A stretch of DNA of 47,671 nt from Spirochaetales bacterium (GTDB taxonomy: Bacteria; Spirochaetota; Spirochaetia; JAIPGG01). Where the stretch lies: positions 1-47,671 of the forward strand of contig JAIPGG010000011.1 in the NCBI GenBank assembly GCA_021736255.1, read 5' to 3'. The notes below the pieces were generated by a model. The model saw only the letters and a list, made by a program, of their open reading frames with translations, did no database searches and was not told the DNA's origin. How positions within the stretch are numbered: position 1 is the first letter of the stretch; each line of letters starts with the position of its first letter. Shown here piece after piece: positions 42,527 to 47,421 of the stretch. The position numbers were made by a program, and so were the translations under genes.

Positions 42527-43111
42527 CTAGTCAGAATCCAACTGATTGGGACGGCTTTTCTGCAGCGGGAACTCCTTTTCCTTCCAGTCACGCACATACT
42601 GCCTTTGTTCGCTGCTTTCCGGACTGGAGATATAACTGGATTTCGGACAGTTCTTCCACAGCTTCTCCAGCCGGTCCAGGGCCGCCTGTCCCCGGAGACC
42701 ATGACGCGCCAGCCAACAGCCGACTACAAGACCCGTTCTGCCTACACCACCCCAGCAATGGAGATAGAGCATACGCCCCGACCCGAGGTGTTCATCAACA
42801 GCATCGAGTATATCTTTCATTTTCTCCGGGGAGTCGGGCACCGACTGATCGGTAATGGGAAATCGCTGATACGCGATCGGCCCATCAGGCGGAACGTTAA
42901 GAAGATGTGCATAGGTTTCGAGTCCATCCTGCGGCGTCGTTAAATCAATAAACGCGCGCACGCCGGCACGGGTAAGAGCCCCGAGTTTACTGTGCGCCTG
43001 TTCCAAGAGAGAATCGCCGGGATACTCTCCTGCCAGGAAGGACTCCGGTTCAACCCAGTAGCTGTTGGTAATTGGTGTTGCTATGTTCATTCCTTTACTC
43101 TGAACTATCAT
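42527..43111 (-). CDS. Dual-specificity/tyrosine phosphatase-like protein
   Basis: Protein of 194 residues from ATG 43111; an internal ATG at 43090 (MNIATPITNSYW) is equally possible, and neither has a well-spaced Shine-Dalgarno. The phosphatase P-loop is LYLHCWGGVGRTGLVVG, the HCx5R signature with catalytic Cys and Arg. An upstream Asp in PITDQSVPD is a good general-acid candidate, and VRAFIDLTTPQDGL is the usual preceding strand. Size and layout fit small cytoplasmic dual-specificity phosphatases. It lies just upstream of ftsH in the same direction and near the kinase-like cluster, so it may belong to the same signalling setting; that is inference. Confidence 0.86.
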   Translation of the reverse strand: MIVQSKGMNIATPITNSYWVEPESFLAGEYPGDSLLEQAHSKLGALTRAGVRAFIDLTTPQDGLETYAHLLNVPPDGPIAYQRFPITDQSVPDSPEKMKDILDAVDEHLGSGRMLYLHCWGGVGRTGLVVGCWLARHGLRGQAALDRLEKLWKNCPKSSYISSPESSEQRQYVRDWKEKEFPLQKSRPNQLDSD

Positions 43112-43201
43112 CTAATCAGAAATGTCCACACCTGTCGAGTAGAGGGAAAGTTCAGGTGGTTGAGTATCCGTGTTGCCTCACCCAAAATTCTAACCGAAAT
43201 C

Positions 43202-43229
43202 TTGACGAATGCGGTCAGCCTGTGATACC
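43202..43229 (+). promoter_or_regulatory. Promoter of the amidohydrolase/radical SAM operon
   Basis: TTGACG, 16-base spacer, GATACC with an extended -10 TG (TGTGATACC). It predicts a transcript starting near 43236 with a leader of roughly 165 bases, unusually long here. Confidence 0.55.
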
Positions 43230-43365
43230 TTCCCGCAAACACCGGAAACACTATGGATATGCATCGATTCATGCACAAAAAACGATTGCGCCACACAGCG
43301 GGAAAAAGGCGCCCCGCCTATTGGGAAAGGCTCCCTGTTCTTTATGAACAGGGAGCTTTTTTTTT
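43230..43365 (+). promoter_or_regulatory. Probable attenuator/riboswitch leader
   Basis: A structured 5' leader. TTCCCGC (43230-43236) can pair with GCGGGAA (43298-43304), enclosing a domain with GCATCGATTCATGC as an inner hairpin; the 43230 arm could also pair with GGGAAAGG just before the terminator, an alternative fold. The leader ends in a perfect intrinsic terminator ahead of the coding region. I could not match it to TPP, SAM, cobalamin, purine, preQ1, glycine, THF or ZTP classes by eye. The predicted transcription start is close to 43236, so the outer stem may not be complete. Confidence 0.5.
43330..43365 (+). terminator. Intrinsic terminator inside the leader
   Basis: Perfect 11-base stem GCTCCCTGTTC / GAACAGGGAGC with loop TTTAT, followed by nine T residues, 38 bases before ATG 43404. 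It only works on the plus strand, where no complete gene precedes it, so it must act on the leader of the amidohydrolase operon. Confidence 0.9.
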
Positions 43366-43403
43366 GTCCAGAGATTTTTTATCTCAAACAAACAGGAGGA
43401 AAA

Positions 43404-44471
43404 ATGAGTTTCGAAAACGAGCTGCGCAAGGCAGCGAAAGCCGGTGGAGGCTGGTTCAATGCCCATGCCCACATCGACCGGTCATTCGTCATGGAATCGA
43501 GGTACGTCGAGCACGCAGACATGGACCCCTGGGAGATTGCCACCTATCCCCTCGAGGTAAAGCAGCACATTACCGGAGTGCTGCACGAAGGGCTTGCCTA
43601 CAGCCGTGATTCTCTGAAAGAGAGAATAAGCCGCGGACTCGATGAAGCAATTGCCGCAGGAACTCGAAGACTCGACAGCTTCATCGATGTAACAGCCGAC
43701 TGTGTCGGCCTGCGGGCTCTGGAAGCTGCAAAGGAGGTAAAGGAAGAATATGCCGGGGAGATCGACTTTCGAATCGGGGCCTATCCGATCTTCGGCTTTC
43801 AGGATACCGAACCGGAACGCTGGGAGATTTTCGAGGCCGGCTCAGCAATAGCGGACTTCATCGGCACCCTACCCGAACGGGATGCCAGGCAGGGACATAT
43901 TGGATTCGACGAACATTTCCGCCGGGTGCTGAGCCTGGCCAATGAACGGAACTCCATGGAAACCCATTTTCACGTAGACCAGTCGAACCTGCCGGATGAA
44001 AAGGGCACAGAGCGGCTGATCGAAGCGGTGCGCTGGCTTCGCCCCGACAGAAGGGGAAGAGAAGAAGAGCGCGAGCCGAGTGTCTGGGCCGTCCATTCAC
44101 TTTCGATAGCCTCCTACAGCGAAGCACGATTCCGGCAAATCGTCGCAGGACTCAAAGAAACGAACATCGGCGTTATTGTGTGTCCTACCGCTTCATTATC
44201 CAACAAACAGCATCGGAATGTCCTGGTACCTATGCACAACAGCATCACCCGAGTACTCGACCTATTAACCGAAAATATCCCCGTCAGAATCGGAACCGAC
44301 AATGTCCAGGATTTCTTCCTGCCGGCCGGCAGCTTCGATCTGTACAACGAAGTCTATGTAGCAGCCAATGCCCTCAGGTTTTACAACTTCTCTACCTGGG
44401 CGCGGGTAGCTGCCGGCAACAAACCGAACCAGGTAGACAAGATGAGGATGAAAAATGCCGTCGCGAATTGA
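43404..44471 (+). CDS. Amidohydrolase, cytosine-deaminase-like
   Basis: About 355 residues from ATG 43404, preceded by AGGAGG; the ORF-track start at 43209 lies in the leader and would run through the terminator. Metal motifs of the cytosine deaminase-like amidohydrolases: GWFNAHAHIDRSFV (HxH), METHFHVDQSNLPDE, AVHSLSIASYSEARF and the catalytic-Asp motif IGTDNVQDFFLPAG, close to the GxDNxxDPFxPxG of CodA-type enzymes. It should hydrolyse or deaminate a cyclic nitrogen compound, but the substrate is unknown. It overlaps the radical SAM gene by 17 bases, so the two work in one pathway and share the leader control. Confidence 0.85.
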   Translation: MSFENELRKAAKAGGGWFNAHAHIDRSFVMESRYVEHADMDPWEIATYPLEVKQHITGVLHEGLAYSRDSLKERISRGLDEAIAAGTRRLDSFIDVTADCVGLRALEAAKEVKEEYAGEIDFRIGAYPIFGFQDTEPERWEIFEAGSAIADFIGTLPERDARQGHIGFDEHFRRVLSLANERNSMETHFHVDQSNLPDEKGTERLIEAVRWLRPDRRGREEEREPSVWAVHSLSIASYSEARFRQIVAGLKETNIGVIVCPTASLSNKQHRNVLVPMHNSITRVLDLLTENIPVRIGTDNVQDFFLPAGSFDLYNEVYVAANALRFYNFSTWARVAAGNKPNQVDKMRMKNAVAN

Positions 44472-45489
44472 ATCAGCAACCGGAACCACAGCCGGTTCCG
44501 GCACACCCCGCTCCAACAGGGAAACATCCATCACGGAAGCGCAAATCTTTCTGACCAGGCAGTGCAACCTCTCCTGCGGATATTGCAATCTGGTGGGAAA
44601 AGCCATGGATGAACTGGGCCTCGAGGAATGGAAAAAGGGGTTCGCCCGGCTTGCAGCTCTCGGGATAAAGACCGTAAAAATACTCGGCGGCGAACCCACG
44701 ATAAAACCTTGGCTTCCTGAAATCATTCGCTCCAGCAGCGAAATGGGGCTGAAAACCGCGCTCCTTTCCAACTCGCTTTTCGATGATCAGATGCTCTCCC
44801 GGCTCGTTGATGCCGGCCTGTGGGGCTACTACGCCAGTGTAGACAGCCTTCAGGATATCAATCAATGGGACAGCCAGACCGCAGGGAAGGCAAAAAACGG
44901 CTTCGCCATGCTCAAACGTCTTCAGAAAACAAGCATACCGCTCCTTGCCGCCAATATCGTAATTCACCGGAAAAACTATCGGGAAGTACCCCGGCTCGTA
45001 CAACGGCTTTCTGATGAAGGCTTTTCCTGCAACCTCTGCAGCGTCCAGCACCACAGCGGAGAAGAGCGGGAATTCTCCCGATCGGATGTAGGGGATTCAT
45101 TACGCTTTTTCCACGAAGACCGGAATGAACTGAAAAACCTTTCAACTACACTCATGTCCATGCAGCAAGGGGGAGTGAAGATCTCCGTTCCTGCAGAGTA
45201 TCTGCGGAAGATGCCGGAGTATGCCGTCGAGTGCAATTGGAAATGCTCCGAGCTCGTACAATTACGAGTGGACGCCGACGGGGGTATCATGCTCTGTAAC
45301 GAATACCGGACCGAGCTGGCCGACCGCTGGAATATTCAAGATCTGAGCCCGGCTGCCTACGCAGACTTTCTAAAAGACTGGAAAGAACACCGCCGGCGGC
45401 TCGAGTGTTCAGGGTGCTACTGGAGCTGCTTTCTGCAGGCAGAAGAAAACCTCAGAGCCGGCCGGCTGGAGTTCGATTTTATGAATTGA
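44455..45489 (+). CDS. Radical SAM protein with SPASM-like C-terminus
   Basis: Protein of 344 residues. After a 25-residue Ser/Thr-rich N-terminus comes IFLTRQCNLSCGYCNLVGK, the CxxxCxxC [4Fe-4S] motif, then VKILGGEPTIKP (the GGEP SAM contact) and LLSNSLFDDQM. The C-terminal 90 residues carry a Cys set (VECNWKCSELVQLRVD, IMLCNEYRT, LECSGCYWSC) like a SPASM or twitch auxiliary cluster domain. It starts inside the amidohydrolase gene with GAGG upstream. SPASM proteins often modify peptides, but no precursor peptide gene is seen here, and the amidohydrolase partner suggests a small-molecule or cofactor pathway instead. Reaction unknown. Confidence 0.85.
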   Translation: MPSRIESATGTTAGSGTPRSNRETSITEAQIFLTRQCNLSCGYCNLVGKAMDELGLEEWKKGFARLAALGIKTVKILGGEPTIKPWLPEIIRSSSEMGLKTALLSNSLFDDQMLSRLVDAGLWGYYASVDSLQDINQWDSQTAGKAKNGFAMLKRLQKTSIPLLAANIVIHRKNYREVPRLVQRLSDEGFSCNLCSVQHHSGEEREFSRSDVGDSLRFFHEDRNELKNLSTTLMSMQQGGVKISVPAEYLRKMPEYAVECNWKCSELVQLRVDADGGIMLCNEYRTELADRWNIQDLSPAAYADFLKDWKEHRRRLECSGCYWSCFLQAEENLRAGRLEFDFMN

Positions 45490-45497
45490 CTGATTGG

Positions 45498-46616
45498 TCA
45501 GCCCTCCAGCGAGACAAACTGTTCGGGCCGCATACGGATGCTCGGGGAGCTCACTGCATCAACATCCGGCTCCGGCGTAGAATCGAGCCGGTACCCGATG
45601 CGGGCAATGTACTGGACCGTGCCTGCAACACCGAGTTCGGCGGCAACCCGGTTCTTCCACGGTTCTTCTTCGAGAACCTGGGAAATCGGATGAATCACGA
45701 TGTTCCGCTTGAAGGCGGCAATCTTCATCCGCTGGTACCGGCGACCGGTTTCAATAAGGTCCCTCGGCTCTCCGGAGTCGGAAGAGATAACCAGGATACC
45801 CGCTGAATGATCGAGTTGCTTCTCCGTAATGGAGCCGATTGCTTTCCGGTTCGAGTCTTTGAGCATTGTTTCAGGTTTAAAGAAGGCATACCAGAAAAAT
45901 CGGGCGATTTTCGGCAGACCCATCATTTGCGGGGTCATACCGATTCCCCGTTCACGTTCGGTCTTCTTTGAAAAATGAAAAAGCCCTACCAACTCTTTTT
46001 GGACATTGTCTCTTTCTGCCTGGGCTAGGGCTGCGCGGGGAGCTTCGCTCCGGAACCAGTGCGCCTCCCTGCTGCCGGCAGGAAAGAAGGTCACCAGGGG
46101 GCTTTCCCCCTCTCCCGGGGTTCTCTTACCAAGGACAGCATCGAGATCCTCCCGTGCAGGAATTCGGACGGCAAGATTCTTTTTATCGGTAACCACCATC
46201 TTGAGTAGATTGAGTCTCTTCCGATCAATTGTTTTCCCGTTCTTTCTCAGGTGAAGGCGGGCAACCTCCCGGCCGGTTCGTTCGGAAAGCAGGAATTCCA
46301 CCTGTGCATCATAACCGCAGGCATCCGCCGCTTGTACCAGCTGCTCGATAAAACCACCGATACTCAGCATAATTTCCCGGTTCTCCGGATCCACCTCGGG
46401 CAGCCTCCGGTCTTCGGATACTTCTACGGTAATCTGCGCCCCGTCGACCCGTACCTCCCAGGGCTGCACGTTGTGAGAACTGTCCGCATATTTTGCTGCC
46501 TCGAGAATTTCCGGGACATCCGTATTTCCGGTTGCTTTTGAATCGCCTGCTACCGTGGCGCAAGAGATGAGCATTGCAATCAAACCAAGCTGTCCGAATA
46601 CATATTTCGAATTCAT
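45498..46616 (-). CDS. Acg-like nitroreductase-family lipoprotein
   Basis: Protein of 372 residues. A lipobox (IAMLISCATVAGD) with Cys near residue 19 makes it an exported lipoprotein. The mature part resembles Acg/TAT-type nitroreductase-like flavoproteins: EILEAAKYADSSHNVQPWEV is the FMN-contacting opening, and SAGILVISSDSGEPRDLIETGRRYQRMKIAA is the second FMN region. Acg-like proteins bind FMN tightly and often lack reductase activity. It has a strong AAGGAGG before ATG 46616 and is controlled by TTGACA-17-TATTTT flanked by two operators for the TetR protein encoded upstream. The gene is convergent with the radical SAM gene. Ligand unknown. Confidence 0.8.
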   Translation of the reverse strand: MNSKYVFGQLGLIAMLISCATVAGDSKATGNTDVPEILEAAKYADSSHNVQPWEVRVDGAQITVEVSEDRRLPEVDPENREIMLSIGGFIEQLVQAADACGYDAQVEFLLSERTGREVARLHLRKNGKTIDRKRLNLLKMVVTDKKNLAVRIPAREDLDAVLGKRTPGEGESPLVTFFPAGSREAHWFRSEAPRAALAQAERDNVQKELVGLFHFSKKTERERGIGMTPQMMGLPKIARFFWYAFFKPETMLKDSNRKAIGSITEKQLDHSAGILVISSDSGEPRDLIETGRRYQRMKIAAFKRNIVIHPISQVLEEEPWKNRVAAELGVAGTVQYIARIGYRLDSTPEPDVDAVSSPSIRMRPEQFVSLEG

Positions 46617-46631
46617 TCAAAACCTCCTTAA

Positions 46632-46647
46632 GTAACTTACTGGTTAC
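46632..46647. promoter_or_regulatory. TetR operator copy 1
   Basis: Sequence GTAACTTACTGGTTAC: inverted arms GTAAC and GTTAC with a 6-base spacer. It lies directly behind the -10 of the lipoprotein promoter, over the predicted transcription start, where binding would block transcription. Confidence 0.75.
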
Positions 46648-46676
46648 AAAATATCAACGAACAAGCCTTCTGTCAA
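46648..46676 (-). promoter_or_regulatory. Promoter of the nitroreductase-like lipoprotein gene
   Basis: Minus strand: perfect TTGACA, 17-base spacer, TATTTT, with AAGGAGG at the end of a short leader. It is flanked by operator copies 1 and 2. Confidence 0.78.
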
Positions 46677-46684
46677 TGGTTTTT

Positions 46685-46700
46685 GTAACTATACGGTTAC
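46685..46700. promoter_or_regulatory. TetR operator copy 2
   Basis: Sequence GTAACTATACGGTTAC: same arms and spacer length as copy 1, starting 8 bases upstream of the lipoprotein -35. Confidence 0.75.
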
Positions 46701-46756
46701 TTTTTTCCAGGAAATTCGGCTCCAGCACCCCAACCGTAAACGCATTCGTCTTTTTT

Positions 46757-47374
46757 TTATTCTGAACGGTCGGAGAAAACGGTACGGACAATATCGGTTG
46801 CAGCTTCGAGCAGCCGTTTTCTCCCGGAGGGTTTGCCCAGCGGAACTCCGTTGAATTCATTGATCGTATCACCGCGCAGCCAGAGATAGAAAAGACCCCC
46901 GGTAAGGATTGCCAACACCGCTTCGATATCTTTCGATTCCTGCCGCGGAAAATGTTCCTTCAGGTACCTCGTTAGCCGCCTGCCGTTCTGTTCGCGGGAT
47001 TCAGCGATTTTTCTGGTAAGCGGATTCGAAGAGACAATCTCCCATTTCAGCAGCTCGGCAAGAGCCCGGTTGTCCCTGATCATCTTTTCGAGCCGGGAAA
47101 AGATGATCCTGCTCACCTCGTCTACCGTTAACCGGCTCTTTTTTTCCAGCTCTTTCTCGATCCGGTCGATCAAGTCAGGAAAGGGATCCATTCTGTTCAC
47201 GTATTCCTGGAGGAGTTCCTCGAGCCCCCCGAAGTACCGGTAGATGAGCACCTTGTTCGCCCCGGCCTTCTCGGCTATCGCATTCACCCCGAGGGTTTCA
47301 TATCCCCCGTCCATCAGAAGATCGTGGACGGCATCGATAAATTTTTCAGCAGTTCGTTCCCGGTTTCGTTCCAT
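46757..47374 (-). CDS. TetR/AcrR family transcriptional regulator
   Basis: Protein of 205 residues, usual TetR size. The N-terminal DNA-binding domain is clear: RTAEKFIDAVHDLLMDGGYETLGV, then the HTH VNAIAEKAGANKVLIYRYFGG. The C-terminal ligand domain is helical with no recognisable ligand signature (MIRDNRALAELLKWEIVSS, LAILTGGLFYLWLRGDT). It should repress the lipoprotein gene and itself: operator copies of the same type lie at both promoters. The gene has no Shine-Dalgarno and its -10 ends 7 bases before ATG 47374, so it is probably leaderless, and autorepression would act on the -35. Confidence 0.9.
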   Translation of the reverse strand: MERNRERTAEKFIDAVHDLLMDGGYETLGVNAIAEKAGANKVLIYRYFGGLEELLQEYVNRMDPFPDLIDRIEKELEKKSRLTVDEVSRIIFSRLEKMIRDNRALAELLKWEIVSSNPLTRKIAESREQNGRRLTRYLKEHFPRQESKDIEAVLAILTGGLFYLWLRGDTINEFNGVPLGKPSGRKRLLEAATDIVRTVFSDRSE

Positions 47375-47381
47375 AGCAGAG

Positions 47382-47410
47382 ATTGTACAGGGTTATGAGC
47401 TTTTTGTCAC
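47382..47410 (-). promoter_or_regulatory. Promoter of the TetR gene
   Basis: Minus strand: GTGACA, 17-base spacer, TACAAT, with the -10 ending 7 bases before ATG 47374. The -35 is inside operator copy 3. Confidence 0.65.
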
Positions 47411-47421
47411 CATCTGGTTAC
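47406..47421. promoter_or_regulatory. TetR operator copy 3
   Basis: Sequence GTCACCATCTGGTTAC, one base off the arms of copies 1 and 2, with the same 6-base spacer. It covers the -35 of the TetR gene promoter, which fits autorepression. Confidence 0.7.

Follow-up and report, generated by a model that had tools for sequence, protein, structure and literature searches.

A putative translation-coupled transcription attenuator in the leader of an amidohydrolase–radical SAM operon of a spirochaete

We propose that the leader of the amidohydrolase–radical SAM operon in the 47,671-nt stretch of Spirochaetales DNA analysed here (the window) is a translation-coupled, nucleotide-responsive transcription attenuator, a reading to which we give a probability of about one half. 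That the operon is preceded by a terminator and attenuator is well supported. The computed observations are the terminator, its recurrence before homologous genes, the leader open reading frames (ORFs) taken as a set, and a design that is common to pyrE(F) genes.

Results

The terminator hairpin reads GCTCCCTGTTC-TTTAT-GAACAGGGAGC and is followed by T9 (Table 1). Its arms lie at 43330-43340 and 43346-43356, and the stem reaches 15 bp if the flanking AAAG/TTTT are counted, one of these pairs being G-U. The distance from the end of the T-run at 43365 to the amidohydrolase ATG at 43404 is 38 nt. An earlier note on this DNA had reported an 11-bp stem and nine T residues 38 bases before the start codon, which matches 43330-43365 exactly. 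Together with its flanks, the hairpin has a predicted folding energy of -24.7 kcal/mol compared with -7.5 +/- 2.1 for shuffled sequences (z = -8.0), and it is the strongest among about 40 candidates in the 47.7-kb window, the runner-up having -20.0. Because the gene upstream of the leader (42527-43111) is divergent from the amidohydrolase operon, the terminator is not that of the upstream gene and is part of the operon's leader. Read on the minus strand, the hairpin lacks a long T-run.

Table 1 Features of the amidohydrolase operon and its leader (window positions unless a locus is named)
Feature	Position	Strand	Basis
Remnant of a mobile-element end, 36 nt, repeat unit TGCCTCA..AAAA.TCTAACCG	43168..43203	+	copies on other contigs
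Mobile-element end sites elsewhere	L002 1501-1536; L003 103-138; L004 119-154		
Related mobile-element end	L039 44-63		
Weak promoter candidate: TTGACG 43202-43207, 16-nt spacer, TG-extended GATACC 43224-43229	43202..43229	+	sequence
Leader RNA from predicted start site to terminator, structure at chance level	43237..43325	+	z = +0.81
Leader ORF, in-frame ATGs at 43253, 43259 and 43271; crosses the terminator and, out of frame with the amidohydrolase gene, ends 203 nt inside it	43253..43609	+	ORF list, pooled test
Terminator hairpin, 11-bp stem, loop TTTAT	43330..43356	+	sequence, folding
T9 tract of the terminator	43357..43365	+	sequence
Shine-Dalgarno AGGAGG of the amidohydrolase gene	43394..43399	+	sequence
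Amidohydrolase gene, 355 aa, distant cytosine deaminase likeness	43404..44471	+	family matches
Radical SAM protein gene, 344 aa, 17-nt overlap with the amidohydrolase gene	44455..45489	+	family matches

An intrinsic terminator was also found just upstream of all seven amidohydrolase homologues that come first in their transcript (L006-L010, G330 and G425), and the leaders of L006 and L009 carry tandem terminators. The eighth homologue (G423) sits within a pyrFE operon, directly after pyrFE, and for this reason has no terminator of its own. The same layout of promoter, leader and terminator is present on pyrEF of G330 and G425 and on pyrFE of G396 and G423, and in these pyr leaders T-rich tracts lie ahead of the hairpin, the clearest being the U9 tract of the G423 pyrFE leader. 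Over the 60 nt that precede the hairpin, T makes up 35-45% in the pyrE(F) leaders and L006, and 12% in the window, whose leader has no U-rich pause tract upstream of the terminator. The gene upstream of the leader is divergent in L007, L009 and the window, and co-directional in L006, L008 and probably G330; the terminators of L006, L008 and probably G330 could also serve this upstream gene.

The leader ORF of the window is preceded by a weak Shine-Dalgarno only. A pooled test, which replaced a weak test of the single leaders, took the start site predicted from a TTGAC(A/G/T) box and the ATG that comes first after it; the frame opened by this ATG had to cross the terminator and reach the gene start. 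The shuffles preserved dinucleotides and the terminator; as a caveat, the promoters were picked by eye. Such a frame is present in seven of nine independent leaders where 0.51 are expected from shuffles (P about 2e-9), and the result is robust to the offset of the start site. The shuffles understate the background, as an empirical control revealed: about 17% of real intergenic regions from the same loci have the property (about 6% of shuffles), giving P about 1e-4, with the qualification that this sample is small and that some of its gene starts are probably misplaced. The significance holds for the pooled set, whereas the window ORF by itself, with a null of 0.21, is not significant. The test failed for L006 and L008, the ORF of the latter stopping within the hairpin loop.

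Coding constraint on the leader peptides in sister pairs was mixed, without consistent conservation. This would follow if the act of translation counts rather than the peptide, but a chance ORF would show the same. A Pfam search of the leader peptides yielded no relevant family. The peptides of the window, L007, L010 and G396 open with unusually basic stretches (e.g. MHIRKRLKYKKDKK and MDMHRFMHKKRLRH), and E. coli PyrL is likewise basic at its start (MVQCVRHFVLPRLKK). The pyrFE leader of G396 (L041, minus strand, about 3200-2860), in which a 97-codon stopless ORF spans two tandem terminators and ends at the pyrFE Shine-Dalgarno, is the clearest case of an ORF-through-terminator design.

The promoter that the earlier note had placed ahead of the terminator has a counterpart in our analysis, but a weak one: the candidate -35 box agrees with the consensus in 5/6 positions, the best -10 box in only 3/6 with a TG extension, and a consensus promoter scan did not report the candidate at 43202-43229. 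The homologous leaders carry TTGACA/T in the equivalent relative position. In the window, the TT of the -35 box is formed by the final two bases of the 36-nt mobile-element remnant, which by its look may be the end of an IS21-like element. Contigs C78 and C47 have copies of 100% identity close to their ends, and C43 has one of 94%. This multi-copy end with tandem TGCCTCA..AAAAATCTAACCG units is found at contig ends of the window's genome as well as beside the amidohydrolase promoter, and the related end in L039 lies directly upstream of a pyrEF promoter in another spirochaete.

Without the terminator, the leader folds as shuffled sequences do (43237-43325, z = +0.81; 43202-43325, z = +0.39). 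In the RNA up to the terminator loop no strong antiterminator was found (z = +0.60), and strong pairing of the 5' arm of the terminator with the leader was not found either. A 7-nt pairing seen by eye joins TTCCCGC (43230-43236) and GCGGGAA (43298-43304); its 5' arm lies just past the -10 box and probably outside the transcript. Thus, the folding and the competing pairings that had been described for about 90 bases of the leader are not borne out.

At the gathering threshold, Rfam matched no family in the window, the homologous amidohydrolase leaders or the pyr leaders, except for a cobalamin riboswitch in L009 (10107-10314, minus strand; RF00174, 100.7 bits), which has no relation to the attenuator finding. 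The earlier note had likewise assigned the window leader to no known class. At a permissive threshold this leader gave only a sub-threshold PyrG terminator arm and chance-level matches. The homologous leaders are too dissimilar for mutual alignment, and no shared sequence, aptamer or fold was seen among them. What recurs among the leaders instead is a reading frame that traverses the terminator. Of the conserved structure upstream of orthologues on which the earlier note had made its reading depend, one half is thus present: the terminator is conserved but the RNA structure upstream of it is not; and of its two suggestions, riboswitch or attenuator, the recurrence of the terminator favors the attenuator, while the searches of Rfam, fold and aptamer returned nothing for the riboswitch.

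The top NCBIfam matches of the amidohydrolase protein are PRK06886 and cytosine deaminase models, and no pyrC model is among its NCBIfam matches at E 0.001. Homologues with 66-71% identity occur in Spirochaetota and KSB3 genomes. The family is rare (6/394 genomes of the class); searches at the level of order, family and class gave few further homologues, and a plasmid search gave one with 42% identity in another gene context, the remaining matches being below 30%. Downstream of the amidohydrolase gene, L006 has pyrE, a pyrD-like gene and pyrF (pyrD and pyrF named from reading the translations) and L008 has pyrE. The radical SAM partner is kept in L007 (7094-8071) and L010 (1330-2310), and it was seen only beside amidohydrolase copies from genomes without pyrE over cut-off.

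A PyrC-type dihydroorotase over cut-off was found in none of the nine genomes with the amidohydrolase gene. TIGR00857 had no match over cut-off in G000, G330 and G393-G397 (loci L015-L024), and TIGR00856 had none in all nine genomes, including G423 and G425, for which the PyrC search comprised the TIGR00856 class only. When the five best TIGR00857 hits were examined, each had its highest score as dihydropyrimidinase, and four exceeded the dihydropyrimidinase cut-off. pyrB is over cut-off in 5/9 genomes and pyrE in 6/9. Among the genomes with the radical SAM partner (G000, G394 and G397) none has pyrE over cut-off and two have no pyrB over cut-off; G000, which is 82% complete, shows neither. 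Due to the strict cut-offs for the pyr genes and the incomplete genomes, the dihydroorotase gap is a lead only.

Discussion

In the mechanism that we propose, RNA polymerase would start near 43237 and would usually stop at the T-run 43357-43365. Under nucleotide shortage, the polymerase would be slowed upstream of the terminator, and a ribosome translating the leader ORF from 43253 would catch up and cover the 5' arm of the hairpin, so that transcription would read through into the operon. The transcription start, termination, leader translation and nucleotide sensing in this scheme, and a window copy that still acts in this way, are what we infer from the computed features. Since pyrE(F) genes of related genomes share the arrangement, a pyrimidine nucleotide is the most likely signal.

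The terminator hairpin of pyrBI is kept from forming by tightly coupled translation across the pyrL leader, while at normal UTP the terminator is not repressed (PMC4824070; PMC5021804). A mechanism of this kind best explains the leaders of our set. Taken as a control, E. coli pyrBI has the same architecture as our set of leaders: a promoter, a short ORF running through a GC-rich hairpin with a T-run, and pyrimidine genes, and in most leaders of the set the ORF stops where the gene begins. In contrast to E. coli, the gene controlled here would code for an amidohydrolase, joined in the window by a radical SAM gene; the sequences are unrelated and some leaders have tandem terminators. The window copy is atypical in that it lacks a U-rich pause tract, its ORF continues past the gene start and it is not significant alone. 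Further points against the reading are the failure of L006 and L008 in the pooled test, the mixed coding constraint of the leader peptides and the lack of pyrE and pyrB over cut-off in G000. The missing U-rich tract implies either another limiting nucleotide or a different signal, and we speculate that the C-rich stretch 43310-43318 could be a CTP-dependent slow point. Our best reading is that the window copy acts like a translation-coupled attenuator; we refrain from classing it with the UTP-sensitive pyrBI attenuators.

A leader of about 90 nt with a strong terminator adjoining a metabolic operon would also suit an undescribed riboswitch, or another ligand- or protein-binding RNA that governs the terminator, and G330 and G425 do share a hairpin upstream of the terminator with compensatory changes (TGCGCC/GGGTGCG vs TGCACC/GGTGCA). 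Considering that the structure of the window leader is at the level of shuffles, that Rfam was null for the window and homologous leaders, and that no common sequence or fold was seen across the leaders, we regard this as unlikely. It is quite unlikely, too, that the hairpin is a non-regulatory terminator which stops read-through from the mobile-element remnant or stray transcripts, with the operon starting downstream of it. The adjoining mobile-element end and the weak promoter before the hairpin agree with such a function, yet the T-run and the ATG are only 38 nt apart, Shine-Dalgarno included, homologues that lack this element have the hairpin in the same place, and the genes upstream of the leaders of the window, L007 and L009 are divergent.

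Attenuators of the trp/his type, in which a leader peptide senses charged tRNA, likewise combine a leader ORF with a terminator, and the window ORF, as well as several other leader ORFs, is rich in Arg, Lys and His (MDMHRFMHKKRLRHTAGKRR). However, the leaders have no single-amino-acid codon run in common, no strong antiterminator hairpin was found and the ORF enters and passes through the terminator itself, whereas in amino-acid attenuators the terminators are >20 bp from the leader ORF (PMC4824070); sensing of tRNA is therefore improbable. Hardly credible is attenuation of the PyrG type, in which low CTP leads to reiterative G addition at the start site. Among the permissive Rfam matches, the terminator arm of PyrG_leader (28.6 bits) is indeed the best, and the arm GCUCCCU...AGGGAGC resembles that of the B. 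subtilis-type pyrG leader (RF02371), but the match is limited to the hairpin and leaves the rest of the family unmatched, the score is far under the gathering score of 65, and the window has neither a GGGC-like start nor a G-run (GGG) near the predicted start 43237.

If translation-coupled attenuation is the right reading, ribosome-coupled pyrimidine attenuation would extend beyond enterobacteria and would recur, on leaders of unrelated sequence, in Spirochaetota and KSB3. A simple rule would identify it, namely an ORF that traverses the terminator and stops at the start of the gene. The presence of a terminator does not in itself make a leader a riboswitch. Within the open-access literature, we found no report of pyr attenuators in spirochaetes or of such a substitute dihydroorotase.

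As to the function of the operon, the amidohydrolase may replace dihydroorotase, or dihydropyrimidinases may do so. Tentatively, and with more doubt than confidence, we consider that the amidohydrolase, with an origin among cytosine deaminases, could be a non-orthologous dihydroorotase or serve another step of the pyrimidine pathway. It would fill the PyrC gap in spirochaetes and KSB3 with pyrB and pyrE and would share with pyrE a control by attenuators of the pyrBI type whose sequences are unrelated; the radical SAM variant of the window, in a genome in which no pyrE is recognizable, would be a further branch. The amidohydrolase would then be a candidate for a missing pyrimidine-pathway enzyme.

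Elsewhere in the window, GTAACTTACTGGTTAC and GTAACTATACGGTTAC stand before a nitroreductase-like gene (45498-46616, minus strand), and a similar TGGTTAC stands before a TetR-family gene (46757-47374, minus strand); the regions concerned are 46630-46705 and about 47405-47420. Judged by their sequence, these sites are likely operators of the TetR-family regulator.
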